Source: Liolophura sinensis
Taxonomy: Eukaryota; Mollusca; Polyplacophora; Chitonida; Chitonidae
Assembly (NCBI RefSeq): GCF_032854445.1
Contig: NC_088300.1
Location: forward strand, 28,129,608 to 28,193,607
Direction of reading: 5' to 3'
Length of the DNA stretch: 64,000 nucleotides
Part shown: piece by piece, positions 2,202-64,000 of the stretch
How the letters are laid out: every line of letters begins with the position of its first letter
Position numbering within the stretch: the stretch's first letter is position 1
Program-made: the position numbers and the translations under genes
The notes under the pieces: model-generated
What the model saw: only the letters and a program-made list of their open reading frames with translations
What the model was told of the DNA's origin: nothing
Databases searched by the model: none

Positions 2202-5200
2202 CTATTTCTTCAATTTCCGCCTTGCTTCATTAAGAAGTTGATCGAAGTCCAGCACAGCAGGTTTTCTCATCATGGAGAAGCTCTCCTCTTCCTCCTCTGC
2301 TTGACCATCTGCCAATATACACACAAGATCAGTTACCACAGCAACACACAAGATCAGTTTCCACAGCAACCCTAAAGCTATCATTGCTACAGCCACAGGA
2401 TATTACAGAGTGTGACTTCAATTACATAATCACAATACAGTATTTGTAGTTGAATTAATGAATCTACCCTAAACCCTCCACTGGGTTGTCACCTGATCTG
2501 GATAGGTAATTTAATAATTTTGTTTAGTTTGGATTTTTTTTGATTGGTGCTTAATGGTGTACAAGAATTTTTCACTTATGCGATGGTGGCTGGTAAGTTT
2601 GTAAGTGTAGTTACCTAAACACATTTTACTCTTATGAATTTTACTGGTAAATGACATCAAAGTTATACTTTACTGGTTGAATTAGTTGATACTTCAACCA
2701 TATTCTCTTTGTTTAAAGAACTAACCATTATACTGTGTTCTCAGCTGTTACACATGAACAGACAAGGAAATACACCATGGTTTTCCTATGCATAATAGCA
2801 ACTCTGATAAAGCATTCTCATAATTTACAGCAAACAAGGGAATGAACTGACCCAGATCAGCATAATCTGTAGAACAAAATTCGCGTCGTCCCCCAAAACA
2901 CAGGTCAAATGGCTGCTCTCCAGCGATCTTGTTACCATCTAAAAACATAAACAAATCATGTAAACAAACATTTCCAGCTCTTTGTGTCTGCCTGACTCAT
3001 CTTGGGTCCATACCTATAATCATGTAGCCATGGCACTCCACTATTTTCAATACATGTATCAGACAAAATAGCAGACAGAAACACACGTCATGGCATAAAG
3101 CTGCACTGCTTTCACAACACGTTTTTCAAGACTGTTGGTTTAGGACAGTTCCCTAATATGAAGTTAATTTTACTGTTTTACGCATTAGCCAACACTACAA
3201 AATGGAATTTTGAAATTTAGAAGTACACATTTTCCATGATTTTAAAATTTTGGGTCAGGCATGTACCGTTGTGAACTCAAATGTGTCTTTCACATAAATA
3301 TTTCCTCCAATGAAATTCAACTTACTTTCAATAGCAGCATAGGCATCACAAGTGTATGCGTATGTCACAAACCCGTAGTTATCCCTGCAATAAAGTAAAC
3401 ACCAGTCAACAAAATTCCTTTTTTTTTTCTTTTTACAACTGAAAATGAAAGTGCTGTAATTTGTGCATAACTAAATGAATACTGATTTTGACTGATGGAC
3501 TAACCTGAACTCTTGTCAGCAATACGTGTCTAAAAACTGTACATTTCTTTGAAATCTATCAAAATAAACAAAGCAACAGGCTGGAAAGTTGGAAACGTGG
3601 TATAATAACTGCTTCAGAGAACAGATTAAGAGATGGCATAAATATTGGATATTGGTGATAAGATGTTGCAAAAGTATCTTTTATTGAAGTACACATATTT
3701 ATGGTCTACATCTGGATTTTTTTCTTGAAATGCTCACCCATTCTCCCTGAAATGCACACTGGTTTCTTCAATTTCTCCAAACCTGTCAAATCTGGCTCGT
3801 AATTGTTTTCTGGTGAATGTGTCTGGAATCTTGCCTACGTACACAATCCTACGTTCCTCCTATAAACAGACATGAACATAATACATGTGTATGTGCTTGC
3901 GTCAAGTTAGGGATCAGGGTCCATTTGTTCAAAAATGTCTTAAGACTTAATACCAGATTTAAATTTAAGCAGAGTCTTCAATTTTGTACTTCGCCCCAAA
4001 GTAAGTCCACAACAATATACAAACTATAAACTAAATTTCTGCTGTTATACTTTGACTCTGGACAACTGTATTGGCTGATGAATTTGGCTAAAATTCAAAA
4101 TATACATACAACTTCATACCAGTATTAGCTTATACAATTTCGAACATTTGTACCCTTACTATTCATTACTTTATGCTGTACTTAATATTTCACTACTAGG
4201 GCAGGGTCCAGAATTACAGTGGTAGGAAATCGAGCAGAGCCCAAGGGAGACCCACAACCGTTCACAGGTTGCTGGCAGACCTACCCACGTATGACCAGAG
4301 AGATAATGGATGCTAACTGAACACTCACTATCTGTCTCTTTTTCTCCTCTTCTCTCAACTTCTGTCGCTCTTCTTTACGCCTTTCATAAGATGCGTTTCT
4401 TCTGTCATGAAAGATTATAAACAGCATTCAGTATTAAGAAACTTTGTTACAGCAGCAACTGTAATAAGCAACAAGTAACACATGTATCACTGACTTGATA
4501 GCATTCAATCCTATCTGCAAGGAATCTGCACAACGCTACACATGGGATCCGTAGAAAAACAGGGTGTGTAGCAATAAAACCTGCACAACTGTATGAAACT
4601 GTTGCCAGCTAACGTCTTATTCATCTAGTATGCTGTTAATTTTAGGCCGAGTGGTTAGGTTTATGGGTGGAGGAAATAACAATGCTGGTGAGTAGATCAG
4701 CACCCTTCACCGGGTACCTGACAATCATCCCGATTTAAAGCTGCAGCTGAACTGATCGTCTATGTTGATCAGGGCCAGACTGGCTATGGCAAGAACCAGC
4801 AAAGAGCCTCAGCAAATATACGGCCACAAAGACAATTTAAATACTGTAATTCTCCAACCTTTTCAGATGTTTGCAAGGTGTTTATTCAGAAACACTGTGA
4901 GAATACTATCCCAAGTAGACAAAATTATTTTTGTAATGAAGTCCCACAAGTGACTTCCAGTCATGACGATAAGGAGTCATCAGGTATGCATATTAATAGT
5001 GTTTTTGTGTGGCAGGGCGATTCATGCCACCCAGGTAAAAAAAAATTGACTTTCCAACATGCAAATATTCACAAATCCAGACACATAAATGATTGTTGCA
5101 ATTTATCCACTTCCTTGTTCTTTTGTAATTATAAATGGAATCTAATACAGTCAACACATTGGATGCCCTTTTTGTCGTTTTGTCGAGATCACACCGAAGA

Positions 5201-8200: not shown

Positions 8201-10852
8201 GCACACCTTTGTTATCTGCTGAACACTTTTTGAATGTCACACTGAACACAGAAGATTCTGGATCGTGCAGCTGAAGAACCTGCTGACTACTGGTGTCAGG
8301 AACACTGGATGAAAGCACTACATTTCTGGGAGGATTAACCTCGTTTTCAATTTTCTTTTCTGAGGTATTTGGTGGAGCTGCAGAATGTGGGAAGTTCTGA
8401 CAATAATCATGGTCTGATATGTCATCATAATAGGAACTACTGACTTCACCATCTGACGAGGAACTGGTTGGTGGCGAGCTTGCCTTCACAGCTGTATCGC
8501 TTGGAGGTTGCTGTTCTGCTAAGCTGGACGTTTTGTGGAGTATTTTTTGTAGTTTAGGAGAAGAGCAGTGAACAGGTATGGCTGCAGACTGCCTGCTGCC
8601 CCTTCCACATGGAACCCCCATGGGCAGTAATATAGCACCTTTCCTCTTTGTCCCACATTTTAACTTTTCAGAGACGTAGTTTGTAGCTCGAACTAAAACA
8701 TAAAACAAATTAAATTATTTCTCCAATAGAAATTTTTTTTTTTTTTTGATTGGGGTTTTACGCCGTACTCAAGAATATTTCACTTATACAACGGCGGCCA
8801 GCATTATGGTGGGTGGAAACCGGGCAAAGCCCGGGGAAAACCCACGACCATCCGCAGGTTGCTGACAGACCTTCCCAGGTACGGCCGGAGAGGAAGCCAG
8901 CATGAGCTGGTCTTGAACTCACAGCGACCGCATTGGTGAGAGGCTTCTGGGTCACTACGCTGTGCTAGCGCGCTAACCGACTGAGCCACGGAGGCCCCCA
9001 AAAGAAATTTACACTTTAATGTAACTTGCAATTTCATCCCGTTTGTATGCAACATTTAGATTTTCCCCTCAGGAATTACGGATGACAAAATGATGGAACT
9101 ATTACATAGCTGTGGATGCATAACAAATTCAAAATGAAAAACCTGATTGCGTTTTAACACCTTACTCCCCTTTTTATTACTGTCAGTTAAGAGTTTTATG
9201 GATGGAGAAAACCTGGTTACATAAAACCTCTTCACTTGATAGCTGAAGTAAAGCCACAGCCTTCAAAGCTGAGAGATACATGGTACAAATCTTGAAATAC
9301 TTACCCTTATGAATCGGGGCAGCTTCCCTCACCGCAGCTTTCCTAAAATCAATAAATGATATTAAAACCAAATATTTTGCCAAGGTGGGGTCCTGCAGTT
9401 TTCTGACTAAATTCTGGAACTATTTAGAATATAGTATACACAAATGACACCACAGTCACTATCTCAAAACATTAACAGTAATATACTTGAAATTCCCGTC
9501 CCAAAAAAGTGCACTTTAGAAGTAAATAAATGCTACATGTATAAAATATAACTCGTAGTGCTCAAACTCATATTTTCCAGTTGGATATTACCCTACCTGC
9601 CACCCGAACTCAAAGTACCTTTTCATCATCAGTAGAACTCTCATAATCGGGTAAATGATTACCTTAGTCATGAGTAAATGATTACTTTAGTCATGAGTAA
9701 AGGATTACCTTAGTCATGAGTCAAATTTTATGTCATTTACAGCAATAGATACGCACCTCTCTGGGATCCTTGTAAAGGTGTTTGTCGCACTTGGCTGACT
9801 ACTGTCTTCTGATGACTGAGAGGCTGGAATGTTAAAATGCTTAGCTAAATTAACATAACAAGTAGACAATTAATTCACGATGCTGGGATACACATGTACA
9901 AATTTTAGCTGAACTTTCTTGGCTCTAAACAAGCATATGTGTCTTGCTCTCATGCTCCCTGCTCTGTTAATGGCCCATTCCAAAAGGTGGGATGTCAGAA
10001 ATTTGACTAACCAAAAAACCAACTTATAATGCCACTTATCATAGGTAATAATGCATGTTTTTGACATAGTGCAAAGAAACATCTGCATTTATGACGGCCT
10101 GAACTGTTAGATGTGTTCAGGTTTTCTTACCTTCCTCAAACTGTTCCAGCAGACTACCGACATCATGAGCTTCAATCCCTACAAGATATGCAAATTGATA
10201 TGAAGCCGATACCATTCAAATGGGAGCACAAAATTATGATCTCTTCACATCCTCTCAGAATAATCATGCCATATTGAGGCCTAATTTGTGAAAGACAGGA
10301 ATAAGTCTGTAACAGTAGTCTTACAGTTATGTGCAATGTAACCATTAATAAAAAATAGGTCTTTCCCCTCACCCCCCCCCCCCTCATATCTTGCCGTTAC
10401 ATTAAGCAGTGGAATTCAATTGAACAATTACAATCAACTGTAGTTACTGAATATTTTTGTAGGCTTAACTTTTCTATAATACTGTACTTCACTTTTTCAA
10501 ATGACACATTTTACTCAATTCTGAAGGATCCATTTACCTATTAAGCCACTTTGATAGAGTGAAAATTTGATTAATTTCTTTTCAGAAAAATTTGGCATCA
10601 AAAGTATCACTTTAAGAACTGTCATTTTCTGTGCTTCAGAAAGCTTATTTTTACAGGCCAGCTTTTTGGTGAAATATGGTATTCTGTGACTATTCCATGT
10701 ATAAACATTTTCTTTGATTAAGACAATTTAGCCGCTGTAGTTTTACCCCCATATTACTCAAATGTCATTCCAGGTTTCTTACCAGCAAATTCTAAACTTT
10801 CAGTTCCAGTGAGCCTGGATTCAGCATTCTTCAAACCAACATCCATTTCCAT
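2202..10852 (-). CDS. PGC-1 family transcriptional coactivator (PPARGC1/PPRC1/Spargel type)
   Basis: Nuclear coactivator family controlling mitochondrial and respiratory genes. Coding exons, in gene order: 10852-10783, 10178-10131, 9823-9757, 9342-9305, 8692-7609, 6037-5918, 5402-5301, 4401-4329, 3859-3738, 3384-3326, 2938-2852, 2308-2202. All have GT-AG borders and matching phases, giving 1977 nt or 658 residues. Seen: an acidic N-terminal motif SLLEQFEE (near residue 30); DHDYCQ at 168-173, the HCF-binding motif of the family; YPWD at 370-373, also conserved; an RS-rich stretch at about 385-510; and an RRM from about 537 with RNP2 IVYVGKI and RNP1 DNYGFVTY, closely resembling vertebrate PGC-1 (YTCDAYAAIENG, STDYADLD, LDFDQLLNEARRKL at the end). 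The start is the first ATG after an in-frame stop in a candidate upstream exon; further 5' exons are possible. PPRC1 versus PGC-1alpha/beta cannot be told apart, since the vertebrate paralogs arose later. Confidence 0.93.
4640..4760. repeat. Decayed dispersed-repeat fragment
   Basis: Contains GTTTATGGGTGGAGGAAA, shared with 26045-26090 and with the repeats at 30595 and 58030. An intronic fragment of the second SINE-like family in this window. Confidence 0.4.
6537..6880. repeat. 53-bp minisatellite in a PGC-1 intron
   Basis: Direct repeats opening with CCCATAAGTTCAACATTTAT and carrying GGCATTATCTCCATA. Unit starts at 6539, 6581, 6634, 6687, 6714, 6767, 6820 and 6873 give a 53-bp period, with shortened units of about 41 and 27 bp. 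The short units contain TAATGATCTCCGTATG, and the order suggests duplication of a multi-unit block. It lies in the intron between the exons at 5918 and 7609. Confidence 0.9.
6935..7074 (+). repeat. SINE fragment (core and tail, no head)
   Basis: Plus-strand fragment with TTTCCTCCCACCATAATGTT, GGCCGCCGTCG and the tail ending CACTAATCAAACAAATAAA. The tRNA head is missing. Confidence 0.7.
8747..8999 (-). repeat. tRNA-headed SINE, full length
   Basis: Well preserved minus-strand copy of about 250 bp in the PGC-1 intron between the exons at 8692 and 9305. The head has an A-box-like TGGCTCAGT and a B-box-like GAGTTCAAG. Both flanks carry AGAAATTT, a likely target-site duplication. Confidence 0.88.
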
Positions 10853-10999
10853 GCTAGAACATTTCCAAACTACAATCGAAGAAAACAATGTTCAATTTCT
10901 CTGCTTTCCAAATCATTTCAGATGTTAATTCCACATAACAGGGCACATCTAACATCAAGGTCAATTCTTACATTAACTTATAGCATCGGCTTAACTATC

Positions 11000-11105
11000 A
11001 ACAGGGACAAAAGCCTGTTTTCCTCCCATGGTAATGTTGACCACTGTTGCGTAAGTGAAATATTCTTAAATGCGGCGTAAAGCACCAATGAAATGAATAA
11101 ATCGA
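11000..11105 (+). repeat. SINE tail fragment
   Basis: Contains TTTTCCTCCCATGGTAATGT, GTAAGTGAAATATTCTTAAA and a tail ending in AATGAATAAAT. Only the 3' half of the family is present. Confidence 0.6.
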
Positions 11106-11693
11106 CAGGATCAAGTGCATTACAATGAAACATTATCTCAAGAAAATGCCTACAACACATGGCAGATATACAAGTACATCTATGTTTCTGGTCTTGAGGT
11201 ACATGTAGCCAAGTCTGGTACAATGTTATAGAGCTAATAAGTGAAAGCTCACCAAGAACAAGAATTAAACAGTTTAAGACTTAAAAGGCATTTCTGTTGA
11301 AAACAAGTATGTCCCATAACATGCTTTGAATCAAAATCATATACCTTGACTGGAGGTTTATTTGTATCAATGTCTCTAAAAAAATGGCATGTTCAAGACG
11401 CATACACAGCACAAAAATATAAGGATATACCAGTATTAATGTTACAAGCAGGTGAGAGCAGATGTCAAAGCCAAACAATGTTCTCTGGCTTGCAGCAATA
11501 ATTGCTGTAGCATACTGGAGTGACTAATTTACATATCAATACATACTACCAGGTCATTTACACATATATCAATACATACTACCAGGTCCCTTGATATTAA
11601 CTGGACATATATACGAAATACAAAACCTGAATTCATATTTGATCCCAAGGAAAATTCTACAGAGACCGTCACATGGTGCTTCAAATAAATGGA

Positions 11694-11699
11694 TTTATT
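11694..11699 (-). terminator. Polyadenylation signal of the small unrecognised gene
   Basis: Minus-strand AATAAA 49 bases past the stop codon at 11748. It supports 11748-11966 being a true terminal exon and separates this gene from the PGC-1 family gene downstream. Confidence 0.6.
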
Positions 11700-11747
11700 A
11701 TCAACATTTCATTAATGCAAACCCATGCAAGGGGTTATAAAAATGTT

Positions 11748-14640: not shown

Positions 14641-16379
14641 ATGTCACAGCCAATTTCATTAACCTTACCAGCGTTGCCTAGGTATTCTGGTGTTCCGAAA
14701 CGCTATGAGGAAACAAGGCCAGTCCTTATTCAAGATTTCTCACACAAAAGAATATTAGGTAGGTCTTTCGTGGTTCATCATTGAGATTTATATCTTTAAA
14801 GAGCCTTTGTCACTGCACCTATGCCTGGTACCATTTCTAATTTAGGTACAAAGATTTTTACATCCTGAATCCTTTTGCCAAATCAGCTTTTTTCTGAAAT
14901 TGTAATGTAATTAAACCCATTATGTCTATTGAAGTTTACGCATGCTGTTTCTCTCACCTCTGCTAACAGTTATCACGCTATGATAAATATGTATTAGTCC
15001 TTCCAGCATGCTGAAGCCATACCCAAATTAGAAGTTGGAATTAGTTATTTTTTGTTTGTCAAACTAGGCCCTTGGTCATGAAATCCATCGTAAGCTCCAT
15101 GAAGAAGCAGAAGAAGAAAAGCAAAAAGCAATTCGTACCACAGAGGAGATGGTGTGGCTGGAAGCCAAGGCTGTGGCTGAACAGGACTTACAGCGAGTCC
15201 TGGAAGAGGCCAAATTAGAACAGGATCGCGTGGTAAAAAAAATCCATGAAAGCGCAAGGTCATGCAATCAAGGTTTGGTGTATTACTTTAGTTGTAGAGT
15301 GTGAAATTACACCCAAATTTTGGAAAATACCTTAGCGTATATAAAAAAGGTTACCTAGTTATAGCACAAAATTCCAAATAGTTTTTGAAATGTGGCCTTA
15401 TTAACATGGTGCTTGTGTACAGCCTTCCTCACATTTTACACAAAAAAATATACTTTAAATTAGGCATTGCAGCAAAATATTTAAACCCACCTCTTGGTGC
15501 CTTTCACCAATGCGGTCGCTGTGAGTTCAAGTCCAGCTCATGCTGGCTTCCTCTCCGGCCGTACGTGGGAAGGTCTTTCAGCAACCTGCCGTTGGTCGTG
15601 GGTTTCCCCTGGGCTCTGCCCGGTTTCCACCCGGGCTGGCTGCCGTCGTATAAGTGAAATGTTCTTGAGTACGGCGTAGAACACCAATCAAATAAATAAA
15701 TAAATCTTGGTGCCTTGATTTAGTTCCTGCCGTTTCTTACTTTGATGGAACATGTAGTGTAGTAAGTGTATGTGCCATAAACTCAAAAGCATGCACTAAA
15801 CACTAAAGAAACGCTAAACACACAGTGACATCCTTGGTTGTTGAACTAGGGAACACTTCCCTTAGATATTAAACTGTCAAACTGTAGTGTAAAATGACAG
15901 AAAAACACAGGGCATAATGGAAATAGAAAAATCAATCGAGGTACAGTGCATATTTTACCAAAAGTGGAATAATCTCCATGACACTTATAACTGTAAATTA
16001 AAGACAAGCACCGGTAAGAATATATAACCCCTAAAATTGTTTGCTATCATTGATTCTGGCATACTCTCATGCATATTGCTAAACCAGGAGCTGGAGAAGA
16101 AGATGCTGTAAGACAGCTGTTCTAAATGTCCAATTTCATTCTAGTTTCACATACACTTATTACTGTAAACATGTATATAAGATCATGTCACATGAAATTC
16201 TGTATCTTTATGCCCGGTTAAAGACTTTCAATTTCGGATTGGCTGGAAGTGCCCTAAACGTTCATTCTGAATTTCGGCGATGCGTGGTAATGATCTGTAA
16301 TGTCTACTGTAATGTTGTAAGTAACTGACTCACATCGTGTGTCCAATAATGCTGTTCATGTTACATTGTATAACCTTTT

Positions 16380-16448
<69 letters not shown>

Positions 16449-19120
16449 GCACATAAATTATCATAAAATGTATGTCATGTATGTATGGCTTTTTCAAAAA
16501 TTTATTTACAATATGAGTGGAGAACAACTCTGTAATTTCTTTCCTAGTTGGCAAAGATATGTAACTTGATGTGAGAAAACTTTCAAAAGCTGCCTGTGAA
16601 CAGTTATTGTATAAAAAGGGCAAATTAGGTAGTTTTTTTGACCTGGAGCATAATCAAACACCAAGTACATCCAAAATAAAGCTTTAAAGTGGCCATTCCA
16701 TATTGTATATGTATGAATGACCTTGTACCTGTATGTAAGTAATGATATTCAGGTAGCAAAGATCTCCTTTATATTTCACCTGACCCGTAGCAGTTCATTG
16801 AAAATACAAAATTTAATGAAAACATTAGGCAAAGTGTTAGTATCTCAAAAAGTATTGAGTGTATTACTTTTCTAAGGCCACATTCTGAAAACCTGGATAG
16901 GAAAACCTCAGTAGGTGGAATTAGAACAGACCTTTGCTGTGAATGGGAAATTGTAACCATCTTAAATTGACTCCATGACCAAGACATTTCAAGCATTTCA
17001 GGATCACTGCAAAAAAAAAAAAAAACATTGTTTTTGGATGATTGAACATGGAATGACCCTGTATGTGTACTTTAAATAGTTTGGTACTTTTTTGTGTTTA
17101 AAGCCAGTATCTCAAAGTGAAGCAATCAGCTAAGTGTTACAAGCTGTAGCTATGTGAAACACCAGGTGGTCACACAGAAAATGTGAAAAATGCTGTTTAT
17201 GTCATTAAAATATAGACTATTAAGTTAAAATGCTTCATACTTACTATTTAAACAGAGGTTGATTTATCTAAGCATAGCACAAAATTGTGCAAAAATAGTG
17301 TATAGCAGTCATGTGGGTGTTGCTGTTGCGTTGACTAGTAGTTGTTCTCAATTGATAGCTTTTGACTTCATTATTATTGTTGATTATTTAGATATATTCT
17401 CTACATATATTTTCATCGCGACAAACAAAATACTGCCATTAAAACTACACCCCACCGACGTTGCTAACTTGTAAGTTTCTGTATTATCTTTATCTATCAC
17501 CAAATCCTTGTTATTCTCACATAACCAGTAAGTCAGTTAATGTGAGTTTTGAAATTAATCTTTCTTCATATAGCTGTAATGTAAAAAAAGAATTCTAAAG
17601 ATACAAGTATTTATTTAATAATATTTATTTCTTATTTTCTTCATTGTAGTATGCCTAAATCATGGTGATTAATCAATTAATACAGAAGAATTTTATTCAT
17701 GTGTATTCAAATAGTGCTGCATTTTGTAGTAACTGGGAATGTACGCACATACATACATCATTATAACTGAAACAAAGACAGGTTTATTGCTACCTGTGTT
17801 TTATGATTGAGATGTTTTGTTGCTCCCTGTATTTCACAATTATAACAATTTAACAAAACAGCAAGAAGCATTGCGTGTGGAGATGGCCATGCAGAAGTCA
17901 GCCCTAGAACAGGTGCGCATAGAGCGCGAGGAAGGTGCGAGGAGGATGAAGGAAGTTCTAGCACAAATGGAAGCTGAAATTGTGCAGAAGCGGGAAGAGG
18001 CAGTAAAGGCTGCCAGGGAGGAAGAACAGAGGATTGCAGCAAGGGAAATAGCCAGAATCACAAGGTAATCTATTATTTGGTATAAAGGAAGAAATGAAAA
18101 ACTCATTATGGCTTAAAGCTATTTTGGCAATATTACAGCCATATATTGTGGGGAGATCATCTAAAAAAAAAAGAAGGAATGAATGAAAGAAAAATTATGT
18201 ACTAATATCACATTGGTAATATTGCAGATATATTATTGGATGAACATCTGTTACTTGGAATTACAGATACTTCACAGGATAGCTATCAAAAGTGCTTCAC
18301 AGCACTTATAGTACTACACAGCACTTATAGTACTACATCTATTAGTTACAGAAATGAATATCATTTCTTCACATCTTTTGGAGAAAATACCCCTTCAACA
18401 GATTTGATCAGTAAAGAAGTGAATATCCTTTCTTCACATGTATAAGAGAAAATATCTCAAATTTTCAACTAATTTGGACCAGTGAACTATTACTTTAGAT
18501 ACAGTTTGTAAACATGATTGACACACAATTTTGAAGACTTATGATGTATAGTTCAAGTGCACATAAATTATAAAAAAAAAAACTTGTGCAGATTAGTTAA
18601 CATTCTTCAAATATCCCAAGGCATACAATATGTCATTGGTTGCATTTGTTGAAGATTTGCAGTATTTATATATCAATGATATCAGTGGGTGTTATTTCTC
18701 CTTTCTAGAATTCACAATGAAGAACTGAAAAGGGTAAAAGACGAGGCGGAGGCAGTCTTAAAGGAGACAAAAGAGGAAATTTCTGAAGTCCAAGAGAAAG
18801 CTGTTAAAGAAGCTGTTCAGGAGACAATAAAGCAAGAGAATTTGAAACACACGGCTGATTTGGCTTCTGCTATCGTCAGCTACGATATAGAATTGGCCAA
18901 AATGAGAATTGAACTGGACATACAGCTGAATGAGATCAACAGGTTACTGGCAAGAGTGGAGGATAGAGAACGCGCCAAAGAACGAATAAAGGAGGAACTG
19001 AAAAGAACCAGACAATCGTTCCAGGATTACATCACACGTGTGGGAAAGTTTACAGAGGGCCACGCTGCCTTTATGCTCAATCCAATGGTCGAAAGTGTTG
19101 TGGACTTGTCAGAGTCATAA
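14641..19120 (+). CDS. Coiled-coil protein resembling human C6orf163
   Basis: Exons: 14641-14758 (MSQPISLTLPALPRYSGVPK...), 15068-15272 or 15258, 17862/17866-18064 and 18709-19120. About 310 residues; the human protein is about 330. After a short N-terminus with FSHKRIL, nearly everything is charged heptad-rich helix (EEAEEEKQKA, KREEAVKAAREEEQRIAARE, EEISEVQEKAVKEAVQET). It ends with RTRQSFQDYI and GHAAFML, which match my memory of the C6orf163 C-terminus (MAFQKYI, GHADFIL). Exon 3 to exon 4 joins in phase. Exon 1 to 2 is one base out of phase with the best donor and acceptor (TTAG|GTAGGT, CTAG|GCC), and exon 2 to 3 has two possible junctions. So a sequence error, a missed small exon or unusual splicing is possible. 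Molecular function is unknown. Confidence 0.68.
15498..15708 (+). repeat. SINE, 5'-truncated
   Basis: Plus-strand copy starting inside the tRNA-like head at TTTCACCAATGCGGTCGCTG and complete through core and tail (AATCAAATAAATAAATAAAT). It lies in the intron after exon 2 of the C6orf163-like gene. Confidence 0.85.
16382..16446. repeat. Compound (AC)n(AT)n microsatellite
   Basis: About 17 AC units run directly into about 15 AT units, intronic. Expected to be length-polymorphic. Confidence 0.95.
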
Positions 19121-21550: not shown

Positions 21551-21556
21551 TTTATT
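21551..21556 (-). terminator. Polyadenylation signal of EXOSC1
   Basis: Minus-strand AATAAA about 75 bases beyond the EXOSC1 stop codon, a normal distance for a short 3' UTR. Confidence 0.65.
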
Positions 21557-21628
21557 TCTAAAATTATTAAAAAAAATATATATATATATAAACATTAAAT
21601 TCCTTGCATGAAGAAACAATAACACTGA

Positions 21629-24600
21629 TCACGTGTCATCTGATGTTATGAATTTAGGCTGCACTTTTGCAACTTTTCTGTACTCCTTTGCAAACGTTTT
21701 TGGACACTGCATTTCACACCAGCTGATAGGAACCATGGGTGCACCTTTAAAATAAGACAACCAGTCAGAAAAGTAAATATACATGTACATACAAACAAGT
21801 AGTGAAAACTGACAGATAATGTACACTTTAACCGTCTCAGAAAATAAATCATACCATATACAGTGTACATACTGGATTAACAATATTTAGTCTCTCTTTT
21901 TCACAGTAGGTAACTGTCAGCAGTTCTATCAGGTACCTCACAAACGTCCATAGTTTAATGCAATCATTCTGGTTTCCTCCACCCATAAAATCTGTGTATG
22001 GCGTTAAACACCAATCACAACCATACAATCCAGGCATCTGACTGCATTTTATGTTTTCTTGCAAGAGTACTGTTTACACTTACCTGCTTCACTAGTTGCC
22101 ACGACAACCCCCAGCTCATTCTCAGCTGTGCTCAGAAGGTAAGAGTAAGCATCTCCTAATGACAACTACGAAAGATTAAGGAACCAATTCATAAGCACTG
22201 TGACAAATTTAACATTTAACATACCTGTAGACAGATAGGGAATAGTAACATCATAAGACAGTAAGACTTTAATTATACTCATTATTTCAGGAACATTTTT
22301 GATGATTGATGGATAATGTCAATATAGTACTTGATATTTAATAGTTGTTGCTGCAGTTTCAAGAGATCTGGTTTCTTTTGAGTACTATTTTTCAGTATGA
22401 ACGTAGATTATTATAGTCATTTGCTGTTTAAAAACTAATAATTGGTGACATTTTATACAGTAACATCTGTCGTCTATGACAGCTGCAGTTCCCAAGTGCA
22501 AATCCACTAGCATCCACGGATAATACGTGGATGGAATCAGCCTGTGTAGAATCTCTAGTGGAATTTCGGCAGTGTTCAACATTAGTGTGGATAGAGCCTC
22601 TGTAGATACTATAGTCTATTTCTTTTACTGAGTTGCGTATATTCAGCTGTTTGTATAGTCAGTCATAGCTGCTACCAAAATTCTCTTATTCAGTGTCACG
22701 TAACAAGCCAAGCTCTACACGCTGATATGTTGAACATCCATATTATTACAAAGAAATTCAGTATGAGAAGTATCAGAGTGTAGAAGCACTAGGATCCACG
22801 GGGAATAAGCCAGTGTAGAATTTTTTTCAAGGAAGTTTCTGCGGAGTTTTGTTTTATCGTTAGTGTGGAAACAGCCTCTGTAGATACTAGGTAGAAGTAT
22901 CATGAACCGAGGAGCCTCTGGGGTAATAGGTACACCATAATGATATATAGTGCTGTGTTTTGATGAATTAGAAACACCAACACATCTCTATCATCAGCGT
23001 CCTTGGACATAGGGGAAATAAAAATTGTTGTCCATTGCTGAACTGAATATTCTGTCTGGACTTTAATCAATTCATATTTATTTTTCACTAGAATTCATGC
23101 TTTTTCTTCAGTCTTGAATTTGGAAGCCAGATTATTTAATCTACTTCAAAAATTATGTAGGGGTGCCTCCACAAGTTTGGTGTAAATATTTACATCACTC
23201 CACGGTTTGTACCAAAATTCACAAGGCACTATCAAAAGGTGATTGAGTTCATGAGAACTGGTACTCACCATAGACTTTCAAAGTAAAAAGGAAATATAAT
23301 CACTCTACACTTGAACAGTGGCAACGATTGGAAGAAATTCCCGCTGCAGTACTTGAATGTTTTATACCATGAACAGAGATTAACATTTCTTCTAGTACAC
23401 AAAAACAAACTAAGTAAATCAAACATACTTCCATGAGTATCATGTGCATCTTCAAGACACATAATCTACACTGGTTTTATCTGCTAAAGACTTAGCTCAG
23501 TTAACACTAAACATGATAAATGTCTTAACTCCTGCCATCCCATCACTCTCACTCCCCTGCTGAAACATTGGTAGCGCTTTGTGTTAAAATACCCTGAAAC
23601 TTGACCAAATAAACTGCTCATCCTACGACACCAAAGGATACAACTCGACTGATAATAACATCTCCTGGTCTGAAACACTTGTACAGTTCCACCTGAAACA
23701 GAGACATAAAGTATTACAAACTAGAACATTATAATACTGACACACTACTGGACTGGTACATTTGTGGGCTGTTAAACTGGTTGACTTTGACAGTTGTACC
23801 TTCACACCTATGGACTGTCATACATGTACTTGCACACTGTCATACTGCTGGGCTGTCAAACGACATACTGGTGGACGGTCGTACTGGCACACTGCAAACT
23901 GGCACAGGTAGGCTATCTTACTGGAAGACTCATAGTAACAGTGGACTGTGAACTCCATATACAGAAATTGTGCATCACAATTTGGGTGCTCAAACAAGGA
24001 AATTTGATGACAATCATAACAAGAGATGATCAATCAAATATAATTGGTTTGTTTTGTATTAAAATTGTTCCAGAAAGGCTATCCTGGCTTGTTTATGTAA
24101 CAATTCTGTTCTATTTTGCCTACACCATACATTATGTGTGTCAAACCACTTGAGTGCTAAAATGTATTGTATGATCACCAAAGCCTTTATACTGGGTGAG
24201 ACCCTGGGTGAGATGTTGGGAGAGATCCTAGGTGAGACCCAGGGTGACACAGGTGAGATCCTGGGTAGGCTCTCAAACTTGTCCCACTGACAGATAAGGA
24301 AAGCAAATATGTGTACTTGTATATTTATACCAATCCAGGCATATACTGTACTGTATATGGTATTAATCCAAATAACTAGCTGTAATTATCAGTCATCTCT
24401 TTGTTGAATGAGAAACTATAAACCCATTTTAGAGGAGTTTGATGTAGTATTCCTTTTGACACAATCATTGCAAAATTGTGTGTGTGTTTAGATGACAGAT
24501 GCAGCTCTAAGAGCACCACAAGAATCTGCTACAACCCTTATTAAACATCGACTTTATACAGGATGACAAATAATAATGTTTTACCTTGTCCTTTTCTGTG

Positions 24601-33005: not shown

Positions 33006-33060
<55 letters not shown>

Positions 33061-36000: not shown

Positions 36001-36943
36001 CCCTTGGAATCATTGAAATTCCTTTCATTTGTTGAAAGATTTCCAAGACGATAGTCTTTGAATGTAGATTTACTTGATTTTTTAATATTTCAAAGTACAC
36101 CAGCCACTAAAATACATGTAGTATACATAAAGTATGTAGAATAAACATGAAGGATTTGTACTAAACTTGAGTGGTCCTTGGAAGCGCTATAAAGTCCTTA
36201 AAAGATGTTTTCTTTCATATGTGGTAACCCTATATGTAATATACTAGTATTGTGGGTCCATCTTGCAGAGAGTTCCGGCAGGGAAGAGGATGCTGCTTCC
36301 TCATCCACACCTGATGCGAGAGACGCAGGCGAAGCCAGCAGGACACAGCCACAGCAGGATGAAGCCAACATATGGAAAGGGCCAGCTAAAATACAGGAGG
36401 ACAAATCAAGGTAGGTTTTATCTCAAATCATGTAAATATCATCGCATATGGATTTTTTGTCTCCATGGTCACTATCACAAGCTCCTGTGGCTAATACCTG
36501 TCTAAAGTTGAAAAGTTTCATTGCATGAAAGAGGTGTTTCTGTGCTTGTACAGGCATTGAAATACCATGTTTATGTCTTATAGATTGATGTATGTTTACT
36601 GATTATAAAGATTATGGTGTAATGATGTGTTTAAATATACCTTGAAATTGTAATGAACCCATCAAAGTCTTGTTGAGTTAATGTTGACTTCCATAAAATA
36701 AAGTCTTCATTTGCAAGTTGAAATTTCAATCCAGTCAATAAATTAATTGGTTGTAAATTCCGATGGGTTTAGAGTGGTAAGGTTTTGATGAACGTGATAA
36801 AGATACATGTATGGATGGAATTTCCTGATCAATATCTTTGAAATGTTTTGTGTGAATATTACGTTCTGGTAACTTATGCTTGTGTGTTCTGTATTTGTAG
36901 AGATGAAGAGTTTGAAGACTATTTTGAGGGTATGTTCTTATAG
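27804..36943 (+). CDS. FRA10AC1: FRA10AC1 homolog (5' end incomplete)
   Basis: Conserved nuclear protein linked to the spliceosome. Exons: 27804-27865, 28099-28194, 28403-28448, 29901-29977, 31232-31315, 31825-31909, 32143-32188, 32632-32745, 33772-33814, 34898-34980, 36269-36410, 36901-36943. All borders are GT-AG with matching phases; 921 nt, 306 residues plus a missing start (human about 315). It follows the human protein closely: SRHKQFVNNYLLYYGG, DKTDFDVIRENHRFLWNEEE, EKRLAKKYYDKLFKEYCIAD, CGNKKC with WEVNFGYVE, then LCPDC, which completes a four-cysteine zinc-binding set, a basic region, an acidic Ser-rich linker, WKGP, and the C-terminus FEDYFEGMFL. The first exon found starts IHAGGSYGSEFE, aligning with human MHGHGGYDSDFS, so only a few residues are missing. 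The most likely arrangement is an upstream exon ending in the initiator codon. Confidence 0.93.
30166..30428 (+). repeat. tRNA-headed SINE, decayed
   Basis: Plus-strand copy in a FRA10AC1 intron. The head GTGGCCTAGTGGATAGCGTG, GGGAGCCTCTCACCAATG, core GATGGTCGTGGGTTTCC and tail AATCAAATAAATAAATTAAT are all recognisable. Confidence 0.8.
30595..31045 (-). repeat. Second SINE-like family, copy 1
   Basis: Shares TTTATGGGTGGAGGGAACCA and a GGTGGAAGAC segment with 58030-58382. It contains GGGGTTGAACCTGCAGC, a B-box-like element on the minus strand. Intronic in FRA10AC1. Confidence 0.55.
33008..33070. repeat. (AT)n microsatellite
   Basis: About 30 nearly perfect AT units directly next to the left end of an inverted-repeat element; a possible TA-rich insertion target or a slippage product. 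Confidence 0.95.
33069..33430. mobile_element. MITE-like element with long inverted repeats
   Basis: The outer arms pair: ATACTTTCATTTATT at the left and its complement at 33414-33428. The inner arms are nearly perfect over about 33 bp at 33122-33154 and 33341-33373 (left starts TTGAATTCTAAGGTGGGCC, right complement starts TTGAATTCTATGGTGGGCT). No coding capacity. TA at both outer edges fits a Tc1/mariner-type duplication but cannot be separated from the adjacent (AT)n run. Confidence 0.75.
33538..33735 (+). repeat. Third tRNA-like SINE
   Basis: A-box-like GTGGGTCAGTGGTAAAGTTC and B-box-like GATTCAATCCC, followed by a decayed region resembling the tail of the main SINE. Intronic in FRA10AC1, single copy here. 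Confidence 0.5.
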
Positions 36944-39900
36944 CTAATGAGCAGACTGATTTTTCCTGGAATCTGTGCTGGCGAGATGTACATTCCCACA
37001 ACGACAGATTCTTAACTGTGCTGCAGTCCTGCGGAGGTCAGCCGGTAAATTCTTGTATCAAATGGACTATAGGGCGCTTGCTGTGGCCAAGTTGTTAATG
37101 TGTTATCCTTTAATTTACTTGGTCATTGAAGAGGTGGGTTCAGGATCATTCTCTGATACAGAACTGTGTTCTCTCCACATTCCGATGTCTTCTTAAAATT
37201 TGCAATGATGCCTCCTACATAGCCCATTTCAAAAAACGACTTACAGTAGTACTCTGTGGTCAAATCCCACTACTCCAGAGCATAGCCTGCAACTCTTTGT
37301 GGGTAAGGAGTCAGGAGAAAAACATTTATACATGTACATAGAAAAATCCACAGCCTTACAACAAAATACGCATGTTAGATGTTAGACTGCACAAGGCTCA
37401 TCAACCACATATTGTCGACAAGGCCACAAGGGAGTACTGGTACAATAAATAAGCTGCCAAAGGTCAAGTGGGAACCTGCACTTTGTGTTTCATCATAATA
37501 ACAGTGCAGTTTGATGTACAGACCAAAAGTTCTCAGGAGAAACCTTCTTTAAGCAGTTGTGAGTCTAGTTGTTCAATACTGTTTTAAGATGTCATACCTG
37601 GAATTGATTCCACAAAGACATTTCAGTCAAAATTTTATATACAATCTTAAAGCCTATTTTACTGTTTTTTGAAGCAAAATTTTGTCCAACTCATGGAGTG
37701 TTATGCTTAGTGAAATGTATCCAAATTTGAACTTTCAGTTCCAATAACTGAGCGATTGTGAAGATTTAAAATGTTGACTTAGGTCAGAAATGGCTTTATG
37801 GAATCAGTCCCAGATTTTGACTTATTTGTACTTAGCCACAAACCATTTGTGTAACTGTGTATTAAAGATTTACCAAATCTGCTGCTGTTATTACCTGCTG
37901 GATTTTGATGAAATCTTAAATACATAATCTGAAGTAATACTGGTATTAAACATGTGTTTTAAAAGCAAGGTTAAGTGACAAGGATAGAGATAGTAGGAAT
38001 TGCTTTCTTAAATTATTAAAAAAATGAATTGTATTAAAGCCGCTGTTGTTACTTCTGGAGGATATTACGGAAACAGAAGTTCTCTGTCGATTCCCATTTT
38101 GCCTGGTGTGACGTCTTGCAAGAACACTTGACGTCACCCATCACTGACGTATAGCAACAAATGACGGTGTACTTTCAAACGCGCCTTACTCAGTCATATC
38201 AGCTTCATTCATTATCACATACGGAATATTACCACTTCACACCAGGAAAATTTTACGAGAAACTGCCCAAGATTTTGTTTTTGAGGACTGTTCACTTACA
38301 GGGGTTATAAATAGCCTTATTCATCGTGAATGATTTGAACCGTGGTTGCTAGCTATATTCCATAGGGTATCCTTCATATCAGTTTAATATTTCCACCTGG
38401 CCTCTCTTGGCACTAAAGTAGCACTGTAAAAGATTAAACTACTTACACTAAAAAACTAAAGAACGACAGAGCTGAACAAGGTAAGTTTGAAGTCAAAATG
38501 ATTTATTACAGGACTTGAAAGGCAGTTCTGATACAGCATTGACTTGAAGAACAATTATGCGTGTAAATATCTGACGTTTTAAATGCACATTGAAAATTAA
38601 CAGGAAAAATCTCCTAGTGACTTCTGATACCCCTGCCGAGTCAGAGCACTAAATATCAAAACAATTTATCTGTTTACTAATATCACACATACTTGCTTTT
38701 TGTGATGATTCTGAAGTAAAAGTATAGAGAAAAAACAATGAACAATAAAATATGTATCAAATGGACAACCATTGAAACTGTAACAGCAGTGGTTAGTTAA
38801 AGTTTCCCAGCCTTTGATGATGCTGTTGGTACATTAATACAGTATACTTGATACATGTACACGTTTGATATTCAAATCCGCAGAGCTTCCTTCTGATGAA
38901 TGGACTATGATAGCTGAGCAACAATCACATTAAAACACCTTTTGGTCCCACCAGTAACATTTACTGCATATACTCTTGAATTCTCTGACTTATATCTACT
39001 ATGGTATGTTACATTACAATGGAAGTCTCTCCAACTGTATAACTTAAGCCATGACAGGTCAATGCAAATCATTCCCGGCTGTTCAGGAGAAATATATGTG
39101 CTGAAGTTGGTACTATACAGGAACAAAGATTCAGAATGCACAAACTGTCACAGAAAAGGACCTGTTTACCCAACATGAAATGAGTAATCTAAAATACCTA
39201 CTTATTCACAAAAATAATACAAATTTTTGTACAACATACAGATGTGTCTGCCTGCTGAATTTGATAACATCAGTAATAATTTGCCAAATCTGGGAGACTG
39301 AACATATTCCAAGCAAATGAAATTTTCCCAGGAAAAGGTTGAAAAGTTTCAGATGATATTCATGTAGCTCAAGAAGAAAATATTTTTTGGAATTCCAGAG
39401 CTATATTATTGTAACAGTTTTACCATTTTAAAATACTAATCTGACAACATGATGTAGTAGCAGCAGGATTAGTTCTCTTGTTAGAGTGAATAGTGGTCAA
39501 ATGGCTTTACATAAAACTGCATCATCCCATATAACCAGTGTCAAAAAATATTGATGTGTATTTGACCCAGGTGTCTCATATATGTATACTACTGAAACGT
39601 GCATTTTGTTTTTCATAAGACAAAACTCTGTAAGCAATATGCATCTTGTCAGAACGTACAATATGATTCAGAAATGTCATTTCTGCCTCTTTCTTTGGAA
39701 AATAACAGAAAAATTCTTTGTGAATGTGCCAATGCAAGTTTTATCAAGCATTGTTTCTGAACAAATTGCACTGATCTTATATGCTTTCACCATTACTGCA
39801 GAAATGACCATTTAATCCACCATCACCGTTTATGCATTATTTATATTTGTCCAAGCATTAACATGCTATATCACTTCTTTTTAAATGCAGGTCTGTTTCA

Positions 39901-39986
39901 CAGATTGTATCGCAAGTACATGTAGATAACAGAAGTGTGTAATACAAACTTCATGTAAACTGTCATCATTCAGGATCTCGTGAAGA
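36944..39986. other. Convergent intergenic region between FRA10AC1 and the PDE gene
   Basis: About 3 kb with no recognised coding exon. AATAAA at 37444-37449 could end the FRA10AC1 transcript. The middle is occupied by a dispersed repeat (37950-38430) also found in a PDE intron. Confidence 0.5.
37950..38430 (+). repeat. About 500-bp dispersed repeat, copy 1
   Basis: Aligns along its length with 54675-55210: TTTTAAAAGCAAGGT at the start, GGAATTGCTTTCTTAAATT, TTTTGCCTGGTGTG followed by ACGTC-rich sequence, CAAGATTTTGTTTTTGAGGA, and AAAGTAGCACTGTAA near the end. Non-coding. Confidence 0.75.
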
Positions 39987-40085
39987 TCACAAAACTGAGC
40001 AGAAGTTACTTGTTGCTTTAACTTTTTCCTCTGACTTTTGTGAAGTTTCTGGTGGCCTCTTATTTTTTGTTGATCGATCCGACTT
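39987..40085 (-). CDS. Last PDE exon with CaaX prenylation box
   Basis: Starts after a TTTTTCCATTTCAG acceptor and reads [20 protein letters not shown], then a short lysine-containing stretch, ending TSNFCSVL and TGA. A basic linker and a C-terminal Cys-aliphatic-aliphatic-Leu is the PDE6 arrangement (human PDE6C ends CLML), and Leu at the end predicts geranylgeranylation. It needs phase 0 at its start, which the 20-nt candidate exon at 41899-41918 would supply. No other gene here could own it. Confidence 0.6.
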   Translation of the reverse strand, partial: KSDRSTKNKRPPETSQKSEEKVKATSNFCSVL

Positions 40086-43000
40086 CTGAAATGGAAAAAC
40101 AATATCTCATCAATGTGAGGTCTAGTACATGGCTCAGCCAACATTATGTCGCCCCATCGCCATACTTTACTCAATCACCCACTGATAAATATAGCTTGGT
40201 TCTCCTTTGCAGGCCTACTTAGGGAATTCCTCACTACATAAATTCTTGAAGCCTGGTTCTCATCCACCATACATCTCATAACGGATGCCAGGCAGTGAAT
40301 GGTTGAATGTGGTGGGACCAGCAGTTTGGGTGTCCTCATGACTTTGATTCACTGGTGAACCTCTTAAGATGAACCAAGCAGCAAGCAACTAACTCACAGA
40401 TGGTTTGTCTGTGGTATGACCAAGGGAATACATGTACTTGAATTTCTAAGAAAAGGGATCATTTTTTTTTAGACCATATAGCACTAGCACTAATCTGAGC
40501 TGTAAAAAAACATTAATTATTAGAGTATTTTGTCCTGCTTGTTACTGATTATTATCTGCCTTGTACAAACTTGTTATGGTGCCAAATGGGGTTCACAAAT
40601 CTGATTTGACATAAAAACACGTCACAAAACTAATACAAGCAAATGTTGGACAATATTTTGTGCCACAAAAAGAAGTTTCAGGCTGTTATACCCGCAAGCA
40701 ATGATGTCATGAGAAGATGGTCATCTTTAGCCAGTGATACACTAATACTGATGGCATTGCAGGAGCATTTGTATACATCTGTGGCATCATAGGAATAATA
40801 AAACATTCTATTTATACGGGTTCATGTAAGGCAGGCAATAATTAATAATCAATGGGTAAGACAGACTGGTGGTGGTATGTAACTGGCACATGGATAATGA
40901 TGCAGAAGTTTGAACTTCTCTCACTTATGATAGGAGTTTGTAACAGCAATAACAGTTAGTGCAATGCACCATATATATAGCACAGCAAAACATGTATGCA
41001 CCCAACAAACAATGTTCAGGTTTTTCAGGCCTTACAAAGAGAAAAAAAGAACACACACAAGAAAAACATTTATGTGTACCTGATCATTTTTGTCTGTTTT
41101 TCCATTCTGTTTTAAGGACTGCCTACGTGTTACTTCTGCCTGTTCATAGTCTGTTGAAACATTTACATTCTCATTATAATAAAAAATGCACCAGTATAAA
41201 TCTTGCGCAACTCAGATATTTAGATGTGACTTTAATACGTCTGCATTTCAATGAATTCCTTTATATTTAATCTTAAAAACACACCCACAGGCTTTAAAAC
41301 ATATTATAAATAGATATCTTTCTTAGATTGCCTTTTTCATTACACTTACTGCATGAAGGTGCTCAGTTTAAGTGAAGAAAATAGTAGCAAATATATAATT
41401 ATAAAATAAATGTAACTTCACAAAAAAAAAAGCCAAACTAAAAACACAAGTTAGTTCAAGAGACAATTTATTGAAACAAAACAACTCAATTAGAATGAAT
41501 GGTTTTAAAGTCATCTGCAATCTGTCATTATTGATACCCAAATAAATGCACAAAAACTTGAGCATGTATTAAATTAGTATATATTAGCATGCGATAGCTT
41601 GCTTGTACATGAAAATAAAAACACCTGCTTGTTAGTATAACATTTTGAACGCCCTTTTTTTTGCCTGCCGTATTGTTTAATGGGTGCATGTGAAGTAATA
41701 TTCCATTATAACCCATACACCTAGAGAATGAGACTAAAATGAATGCATTAAATAAAAATTTATTAAAACTGAACTGATAATATTGGCCAGCAAGAATGAA
41801 TGTCACAGGGAGGCATAATAAAAAAGAAACTTTATAACATTTTAAGAAAGACTTCTGCTGCGCAACATTTGCAAATTGTCGACTGCTCATAGAATTACCA
41901 CGAGATCTGTAGTATGGACTAGAAGCAGGCAGCCACACATTTTGAGTAAGATGTTGTGAAATGGAGAACATGCTAATTGTATGAACCAGGGCCCGGTTTC
42001 ACAAAGCATTCTTAACACTGTGTTCATTTAACTACCTTGGCAACCAATACTGTAGGCATTACGTCGTCATGGCAGTTCGTAACATTAAGAGAGCTTCGTG
42101 AAGCTGGGCACAGATATTTACTACAAATCACAGTGTATAAAAACTCAATTTCTGGACACTTCCATGTATATTGAAAAAAGTTAGTTCCCTGGTATTATAA
42201 TAAGATAACATAAACAGTACAGTCTGACACTTAATGGAATAAACATTTCAGGAAAAGAAACTGTTCTGAATGTGACAGTTGTACCTTAAACTTTTCTCAG
42301 TTAATGGTAAATGACTTAAAATATTGTCCATCTCTGTCATTCACTTAGCCTGTTCCTGATAATTCTACAGACATTAGTAAAAGGTATTTTAATGTTTGTT
42401 TTGAAGTTAGGATTATATTTCCTACTAGGAAAATATGAATTTCAGCACCAAATGTAACATTCTGACATTCATTTGCCTCTAAATGCACTTTATGAAGGTG
42501 AAATTTTAGGTCATTTACCACACTACATTAATTTCCTTAAAAGAAATTTCACTTTATTTCTCAAAGGTGTTGTGTCACCTATATGTTTTTTGTAAATACT
42601 AAAGGTCTTCAAGATCACAAGAAAATAACAGTAAAAACATAATTCTAAGACGGTGAACTTTAAAGGAATAAACTGTGCATTTTACTTCATTTCAGTGGGC
42701 ATTGTTCAGAGTCGTCACATACCCTGTGTGCTCTGTAAAAGCTTTCGTTCATGTTCATCAGCCAATTTTTGCCAATTTGTTCTATTATCACTGCATCCAT
42801 CATACAATGGTTTTAAATTTTCTGATACCACGGAAAACATCTGTTCCAACAGAGATAAAGAATATAAAAATACATACAAGTCAAGTAAATATCTGCATTA
42901 TTGCACAATATCCCACTGTTTCATCCACTGGCAGGATGGCTGATGACAGTAAACAACAAGAACTATAAAGAACAGACAACAGCAATGCATTAGTAATAAA

Positions 43001-52000: not shown

Positions 52001-55000
52001 TTAATGTGGGAAATTGATAAACAATTAAATGACCCTACTGGGACAATAATTCTTTGTCAAGTGTACATTTAAGCTTTAGCACACGGTATGTTACCTTCCA
52101 AATTTAATGAAACAAGTGTCCTCAAAAACAGCATGTGCTGGGTAATTTATAGTAGCTTTGGGATATTAAACTCTGGTTTGTAAAGTTAACTTAAACTAAA
52201 AATTAAGAGACTGAAGATTTCCTTTCCTAATTTTTAAATGTTTCAAATTTGATGATACATGTATAACATTACTACGTGTAGTATTCAAGTAAGGATAATA
52301 ATATTCTCATTTGTTCTAGTGGTTTTAAATGTGTGTTTGTTGCCATGTCCAGAATCCTTTCAATGAAGCCATAGATCATAAACCCACAATATTAATGTAC
52401 CGTAGGGTTACTAATCCATTAAAGGTACTTACATTTGTGGGAACTCTGAATTCTGATATCACACCAGAGTCCATAAACATTCTCATTGTTGCTTTAATGG
52501 TGTCATCATCAGACAGGGGAAAGTCGTCAAATGAGTACTCCAAAAGATGATAATCCTTTGATGACGGTATGGAGGATGACTGTCAAAAATTGTGAGTGGG
52601 AAAGAATGTAAATGTCCATTTGTGCTCTATAGGTCAAGGCTTTAAGTTTTAGTCACCTGTATGGTGCAGTTGTCATCATTGAAGATCATGATCTACATGT
52701 ACATAGCTCTACCTTTGATAACACCTTGGTACTATTTAATTAATCTGCGCGCTACAATTTCCGCAGCCTAATCTTTATTCCTTATCAGCCTTCGTTTTGA
52801 AGTCCACATGTCACAAGAGAATAAAATGGCTGTAACTTAGACCTGGGACTAATATGTATATAACAGTCCGAGCTTAGACAGACAGCCCAAAACCCTTTAG
52901 GCAAATATGTGATCTTACTGTTCAGATAACAGCAAACTTCAACACCGTGAGTAAATTTATCAACTTTGTACATTTGCAAGTTAAATGAATGGAAAATTGA
53001 AGTTTTGAAACCGTGTCATTTTTGACATGGGGTAACTGAGATGTGCCCACCCTAATTCCTCAACTTTTAGCACATGAAAGAGCAATTTTCAGTACAATTT
53101 ATGCACATTTTTGCTTTGACTTTGAAGACCAAATGACATCCCAGTTTCCGGGCTTCACAAAAAGTATATTTTTTTCAGTCAACACAGAATAATGCCTTCA
53201 CAATATGAAGAAACACCTTGCAAACAGGCGAAAAGGCTGTAGAATTACAATAAACTAGAATCTGCTACCACCAGTCATCCACCTTCGTTTCAAATGTCTA
53301 TTCAGAGTGATCATTTGTAGCATCATAACAATGCAATAAAACAGCACTGTGTGAAAAAAAAAAAATACAACAGATTCTGTATATACAGTTGACTATGAAA
53401 AGTAGTGCATTTTTCCATATATGCATGTAATCCAATGAAACCAGCCTTACCACAAATTTTCCAATATTCTCATTTTGAGCTGAAGCATGGAATGACAACA
53501 CTTCCAAAGCCACCTTCTGTTTTGCCATCAGTTTACATGCATTTTCATACATGGTACAGTTATGAATACCCAAGCCACAGAAAATAGAGAATGCCTGTGG
53601 ATAAAAAAACAAGATTTTATCAGCTAAAGTTACCAATATAGCTTATCCAATTCTGCAAATATAATACTTGTTTTTTTCTCTACAATCTTTGTGAGCTCAC
53701 CGATTTTCAAGAGTTTCTCCATATTCTTTGTGACATATATACATATATACACATTTGAATACCACAGTCAAGTGTAAATAGGTACAGTAAATAAAAAAAT
53801 TAACTTGTGAAACTTCTTCTTGCATGTAACAAACTGTTCCGAGGATATACCTTTTGTTCTTTCCTTTATTATGTTGCCATTATCAGCTTGAGTGTGTGCT
53901 CATAGAACTAATTAGTACACAAGCACTAGAGCATTACAGAAGATAATGGTGCTCTACTGGACTCAAAGTGTAGCCTGCTCGAGAGTTCCACATTAAAAAC
54001 TGTCCAAGAAAATAGTCTGATTCATTTTTTTTTCAAAAGTTAAGAGTATTTAAAATATTTCATCATAATGTGGCCTGTTTATCCATACTACGGTCTAGTG
54101 ACGTCACAAGGCATTTTTGTTTTCTAATTTTACACAGTTTGTGACGTTGATCAGCACCGTTCAGAATTCATGTTACTACATATACATGTATTTAAAATGT
54201 ACAAATCAGTTAATGACATGACATTCTACCTATTACATGACAACCATTTGTATTTAAATATAAAAGGAAAATGTACGACATTATAGAGGCATATTCCCTA
54301 GATCACTGGGAGACACTGCACAGTAACAATATAGATTTGTTCATATTCTTTGTAATTTATTTATTTGATTGGTGTTTTACGCCCTACTCAAGAATATTTC
54401 ACTTGTACCACGGTGGACAGCATTATGGTGGGAGGAAGCTGGGCAGAGCCCGGGACGAACCCATGACCATCCGCAGGCTGCTGACAGACCAACAGAGAAG
54501 AAACCAGCATGAGCTGGACTGGAACTCACAGTGACTGCAAGGGTGAGAGGCTCATAGGTCATTGCACCGCGTTGGCGTGTTAACCACCTCGGCCAAAGAG
54601 GCCCCTGTTTGTAATGACCAGATGTATACAACACACTACATGTATTTTGCTACAACAACTTTTCATTAAAGAGCTACTTTGGTGTCAAAACATCTGTGTC
54701 TTAAAAGCAAGGTGAATTGATAGAGACTGGGATAGTCTGAATTGCTTTCCTAAATTGTGAAAATACTGCAGTAAAATTAAAACCGATAGTGTATGTTTCG
54801 TCAGAGTATACGGAAACAAAATATTTTGTTCCCGTATACTTTGTCCCTTCCACTTTGCCTGGTGTGTACGTCACCCACGAACACATGGCATCATCAATGC
54901 TGATGTATAATCCACAAATGACGCTGCCCTTTGAAACGCTTTTGACGTCATCCCAGAATAAATGCCTTACTCAACGTCACATCTGCCTGATTCGACGTCG

Positions 55001-59200: not shown

Positions 59201-59379
59201 CTGTAAAAGAATATCAGATAAGTAATTATCACCTCTTGCTTTACAATGGATTATTAGTAGAAAACTAAAGGCAAAGAAAACATCAACATGAAGTATGGGT
59301 CAGGTGAAAGAGCACAAAACATTGTCTATTGAAATAGTTTGATTTAATTTCAAATGCACTTGACACTTTAGATTCTTCT

Positions 59380-61640: not shown

Positions 61641-61644
61641 CGGG

Positions 61645-63900: not shown

Positions 63901-64000
63901 GGAAGCTGCATCAATATCTAGATAAATGTACATACATGTAAATGACCTGAAAATAGACACACTTTGGACATCGGCAACTTTAAAAAATAGGCACGTGTAC

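Follow-up and report, generated by a model that had tools for sequence, protein, structure and literature searches.

A chiton gene neighbourhood around a PDE6-type phosphodiesterase as a likely unduplicated counterpart of the vertebrate 4/5/10 paralogon

Genes of the window and its flanks

The window is a stretch of 64,000 nucleotides from the chiton Liolophura sinensis (C6:28129608-28193607, in an assembly of 609 Mb). Positions below are counted from its first letter, and negative values lie to its left. Extended into the flanks, it holds a run of eight genes that reads, from left to right, BOD1L1(+)-NOA1(-)-SLU7(+)-PGC-1(-)-C6orf163-like(+)-EXOSC1(-)-FRA10AC1(+)-PDE6(-). The BOD1/BOD1L1 family gene on the plus strand (about -37 to -25 kb) was recognised by PF05205, and SLU7, also on the plus strand (-11.6 to -1.3 kb), by PF11708 (E 1e-38). 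The minus-strand gene between them (about -16.6 to -13.5 kb) was identified by eye and is presumably NOA1, by similarity; no supporting Pfam or PDB model was found for it where these were searched.

Inside the window, the first gene encodes a PGC-1 family coactivator on the minus strand (2205-8714), the exons of which were read directly from the sequence. The RRM (PF00076, E 4e-8) is encoded by exons 3859-3737 and 3383-3321, followed by a post-RRM exon (2918-2850) and the C-terminal exon (2402-2205). Direct reading also gave RS-rich exons and the C-terminal motif LDFDQLLNEARRKLKK, so that the RS-rich region, the RRM and the C-terminal motif of the family are all present in a set of recognised exons that excludes the N-terminal ones. 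The RS-rich exons and LDFDQLLNEARRKLKK resemble those of PGC-1. A PDB search with the RRM returned generic RRMs only, there being no PGC-1 structure in that database to match. To the right lies a plus-strand gene for a coiled-coil protein (14683-19117), whose exons were likewise read directly. We take it to be C6orf163-like from its C-terminal similarity, and the protein has no Pfam or PDB match.

EXOSC1, the exosome component CSL4, occupies 21632-26023 on the minus strand. A genome-wide search with its Pfam families found nothing because the exons are short; the protein joined from the exons matched PF14382, PF10447 and human CSL4 structures (E 1e-50). FRA10AC1 follows on the plus strand (27816-36943, stop codon 36941-36943) and is the only locus of its kind in the whole genome (PF09725, E 7e-35), with no PDB match. 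EXOSC1 and FRA10AC1 form a head-to-head pair whose recognised coding exons are about 1.8 kb apart (25.9-27.9 kb), and a bidirectional promoter is possible. In human the two genes are megabases apart, so a shared promoter would not be the general reason for the order of the block.

The last gene of the run encodes a PDE6-type cGMP phosphodiesterase on the minus strand, which extends from 42715 to the window's end at 64000 and on to about 71500 beyond it. It was identified by PF00233 exons, structures and trees. FRA10AC1 and the phosphodiesterase gene therefore converge, with stops at 36941 and, in the last exon read, at 42715 and a tail-to-tail interval of 5.8 kb between them (36944-42714), in which no gene was recognised and a single long open reading frame has no Pfam match. 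The original prediction, which had named a PGC-1 family gene, EXOSC1, FRA10AC1 and a PDE gene with the last two convergent, was confirmed for all four places and for the convergence by Pfam, structures and exons. It had passed over a fifth gene, the C6orf163-like one (14.7-19.1 kb, plus strand).

A dispersed repeat (RPSHVRPERKPA and variants) is abundant in this region, with copies for example at 8704-8936, 15485-15719, 54377-54649 and 62792-62976; it retains long open reading frames on either strand and could readily be taken for exons. To the right of the phosphodiesterase gene lie about 50 kb of gene-poor, repeat-rich DNA, the next recognised coding exon being at about 122925 on the minus strand and, by eye, of a sodium/calcium-potassium exchanger of the SLC24A type.

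Structure and affinity of the phosphodiesterase

The gene has the domain layout expected of a PDE6 catalytic subunit: a GAF pair, with GAF-A exons at 66.8-71.3 kb and the GAF-B exon at 55.4 kb, precedes a class I PDE catalytic domain, with exons at 53.6-42.7 kb. Beyond the window's edge, at about 71.5 kb, lies the first coding exon; an end of the gene at 59.2 kb, as previously proposed, is not its start, since the GAF-A exons are further right. Matches to PDE5 and PDE6 structures reached E 1e-93 to 1e-112, and the catalytic metal-binding and substrate residues are all present, including the glutamine in QVGFID. Two versions of the last exon (43143-43045 and 42840-42718, minus strand), each with an AG acceptor directly before it, both match a single C-terminal segment of PDE5 and PDE11 when aligned; such tandem last coding exons suggest alternative C-termini. 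An intron of the gene holds, on the plus strand at 59338-62630, the remnants of an apparently DIRS-like retroelement, among them a stretch that resembles RNase H.

The genome has 13 PDE loci, and a screen of their catalytic exons placed three of them in the PDE5/6/11 group: a PDE5-like gene (C1:37.235-37.253 Mb), a PDE11-like gene (C1:80.747-80.766 Mb) and the gene of the window. The first two share C1 and make a clean comparison among all three genes possible. A catalytic-domain tree grouped the window PDE with PDE6A/B/C (SH-aLRT 95.3, UFBoot 89), and the addition of GAF-B and linker columns raised these values to SH-aLRT 97.6 and UFBoot 94, in trees of few taxa for which the catalytic sequence of human PDE11A was entered by hand. 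The segment QQPIxMMDRNKxDELPKxQVGFID is common to the window PDE and PDE6, and the C1 genes have the PDE5 and PDE11 versions of it. By sequence, PDE6 is the nearest vertebrate relative of the window PDE. The claim that this gene is the positional counterpart of PDE6 was borne out, and the sequence trees now agree with it (SH-aLRT 95-98, UFBoot 89-94).

Two other placements were considered and rejected. PDE11 appeared closest in raw tblastn scores, a lead that arose because the PDE6 references are shorter and that disappeared in aligned identities and trees; the PDB gave no PDE11 match. A grouping of the window PDE with PDE5 was rejected at AU 0.002 for the catalytic domain and, with GAF-B, at 8e-5 under LG+G4 and 0.028 under LG+C20+G4.

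Another reading holds that an ancestral PDE5/6 gene was duplicated within the mollusc lineage, the window PDE being one of the two copies, and that PDE6 is a later product of the chordate lineage. The window PDE is 60% identical to the PDE5-like gene on C1, more than either is to any human PDE, and in GAF-A it is a better match to PDE5 than to PDE6. Moreover, no PDE6 was found in amphioxus, and Lagman et al. dated PDE6 to the tunicate-vertebrate ancestor (PMC4906994). Four-point distances alone did not separate a union of the window PDE with PDE6 from one with the PDE5-like gene, and maximum-likelihood topology tests were therefore used. The trees joined the window PDE to PDE6, whereas topologies with a mollusc-specific pair lost 9-17 log units under LG+G4 (14-17 at AU 0.02-0.05) and 5-7 log units under LG+C20+G4 (AU 0.07-0.13), so that a lineage-specific pair is disfavoured and not every form of it excluded. 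The duplicate reading is also at odds with the PDE6 form of the segment described above, the C1 gene having that of PDE5, and with the place of the window PDE beside FRA10AC1 and PGC-1, which is the setting of a PDE6 locus. We regard it as unlikely. Tree and position favour an origin of PDE6 before the bilaterian radiation.

The window PDE would be a PDE6 counterpart by orthology, which does not imply the role of a photoreceptor enzyme. The last exon read ends in STQGM-stop and has no CaaX prenylation motif (as read from genomic exons; other isoforms may differ), so the sequence does not establish a photoreceptor-enzyme function. The inhibitory gamma subunit of PDE6 has been reported as vertebrate-only (PMC4906994).

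Linkage on the chiton chromosome and in vertebrates

Six families, NOC3L, MMS19, EBF, LDB, GrpE and SepSecS, were chosen by us because their human members lie in the same regions as those of the block. In human, NOC3L and MMS19 are on 10q, LDB1/LDB2 on 10q/4p, GRPEL1/GRPEL2 on 4p/5q, SEPSECS on 4p and EBF on 5q/10q/8p. All six were matched on C6; judged by length, with C6 at 13.5% of the assembly, this has p 6e-6. Only one of 14 controls fell there; these were DHPS (C13), NEMF (C6) and the remaining 12 PDE loci, none of which lies on C6, and the contrast with the 6/6 gave a hypergeometric p of 1.8e-4. NEMF is on human 14q and, with C6orf163 at 6q15, places on C6 two genes from elsewhere, so that C6 is not purely one linkage group. 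The six families lie 13-50 Mb from the window, and this conservation is thus chromosome-scale. NOC3L is also in a goat gene list (PMC9902602). Two side observations came from other chromosomes: the deoxyhypusine synthase gene is an apparent tandem duplicate, with two full exon sets about 20 kb apart (C13:18868216-18895013, minus strand), and one haemocyanin gene of molluscan type, at C8:37880506-37891931, encodes eight functional units.

For the block itself, SLU7, NOA1 and BOD1L1/BOD1 are on human chromosomes 5, 4 and 4/5, and PPARGC1A is on chromosome 4 with PDE6B. C6orf163, at 6q15, is the sole member with a counterpart off 4, 5 and 10. The original prediction had matched the gene set to human 10q23-q24, which is too narrow as the extent of the block; the human orthologs spread over 4, 5 and 10, with C6orf163 on 6q. 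On 10q the order PDE6C-FRA10AC1-EXOSC1-PPRC1 appears to be collinear with the mollusc order, PPRC1 being about 8.5 Mb from PDE6C, and PDE6C and FRA10AC1 are convergent there. All three PGC-1 copies keep linkage to a PDE6 gene. The same neighbours in the same orientation are found in two distant lineages; the mollusc pair was read from exons, and the mammalian adjacency comes from gene lists.

A 2R paralogon includes PDE6A on human chromosome 5, PDE6B on 4 and PDE6C on 10 (PMC4906994). PDE6C and FRA10AC1 stand side by side in gene lists from pig and goat (PMC8871947, PMC9902602), and the FRA10AC1 locus FRA10A is at 10q23.3 (PMC10048706). PPARGC1B lies at most about 100 kb from PDE6A in cattle (PMC10454746), and the two have been analysed together as 5q-minus-syndrome genes (PMC4671954). 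The proposal that singled out PPRC1 as the paralog still in the ancestral place does not hold in view of PPARGC1B beside PDE6A, since that distance (about 100 kb) is smaller than that from PPRC1 to PDE6C. The idea of an inherited linkage block stood in part: the six families on one chromosome and the PDE6C-FRA10AC1 pair in pig and goat uphold the linkage, and its description as a 10q block does not hold.

A further alternative accepts ancestral linkage at the level of the chromosome and has the tail-to-tail FRA10AC1-PDE6 pair arise separately in the two lineages by shuffling within the group. Given linkage, the adjacency would be expected by chance in about 1.4-4.6% of cases, or 0.4-1.2% with orientation, for a shared linkage group of 300-1000 genes and any one of seven neighbour pairs, and this is not negligible. 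The apparently collinear 10q order argues against separate origins, and so does the PPARGC1B-PDE6A pair in mammals, which also joins two members of the neighbourhood (PMC10454746). The FRA10AC1-PDE6 adjacency gains weight because this second mammalian adjacency exists, and we consider separate origins improbable. Finally, that the human match is a selection effect, the four genes having been chosen because they chance to be on 10q, draws on the omission of C6orf163 and on the three human chromosomes that PGC-1 and PDE6 each have to match, but is hardly credible against the 6/6 independent families on C6 and the four of five single-copy families of the eight-gene run that are on human 4/5/10, for which a rough null from gene shares gives about 8e-4.

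Origin of the neighbourhood and known systems

We favour the reading, at a probability of roughly 85%, that the window lies in a surviving piece of a chromosome of the common ancestor of molluscs and vertebrates, the unduplicated counterpart of the 4/5/10 paralogon. Computed here, on one invertebrate genome, are the gene identities, the mollusc order and strands, the PDE6 affinity and the excess of one-chromosome linkage. Under this reading the ancestral neighbourhood would still be single in the mollusc, as the eight-gene run, and in vertebrates it would have been quadrupled by two genome duplications and then thinned by gene loss. PGC-1 and PDE6 would each have retained three copies, on chromosomes 4, 5 and 10, and the single-copy neighbours would have stayed on one or other of these. 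Reciprocal loss may then have left FRA10AC1, with EXOSC1, near PDE6C on 10q, and on 5q, which lacks both genes, a PGC-1 gene still adjoining PDE6A. PDE6C-FRA10AC1 and PDE6A-PPARGC1B would be two different remnants of one neighbourhood.

We infer that the block was inherited from the bilaterian ancestor and that its order was kept by slow rearrangement and not by shared regulation. We also weighed a functional constraint as the cause of the tail-to-tail arrangement and did not adopt it, as genes that converge have no promoter in common and the sequence gives no hint of such a constraint. PDE6 probably split from PDE5/PDE11 before the bilaterian radiation and has had FRA10AC1 tail to tail, with EXOSC1 and PGC-1 near, for more than half a billion years in molluscs and mammals. 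Position helps to date PDE6 in this way, the trees alone being uncertain because the vertebrate copies evolve fast.

Ancestral linkage groups and 2R paralogons are already well known, so the mollusc block is a further instance of them, and it reveals no new kind of gene or mechanism. Like bilaterian ancestral linkage groups, in which whole-chromosome gene content is kept between phyla, C6 corresponds to human 4/5/10; in contrast to them, a small set of genes here has also stayed close together, a rarer condition than the sharing of a chromosome. Like the window PDE, Drosophila Pde6, cnidarian 'PDE6-like' genes (PMC10248080, PMC9776813) and a Lymnaea gene with PDE6A as best hit (PMC11556747) are invertebrate genes of the PDE5/6/11 group. 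They were named by similarity, whereas for the window PDE the tree, the topology test, the separate PDE5-like and PDE11-like genes and the position agree. The literature searched gave no report that ties PDE6 to either FRA10AC1 or PGC-1 in animals other than vertebrates.

Another close known system is the 2R paralogon of PDE6A/B/C on human 5, 4 and 10 (PMC4906994). It has the same gene on the same chromosomes, and the mollusc block resembles an unduplicated version of it. The neighbour families listed by Lagman et al. in 2016 are STK32, TBC1D, PPP2R2, DPYSL, ABLIM, AFAP, JAKMIP and SH3TC, without PGC-1, FRA10AC1 and EXOSC1 (PMC4906994). The block would add PGC-1, FRA10AC1, EXOSC1, SLU7, NOA1 and BOD1 as markers of the 4/5/10 region. 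It would offer an outgroup view of this paralogon before its duplication, and account both for PPARGC1B beside PDE6A and for FRA10AC1 beside PDE6C.
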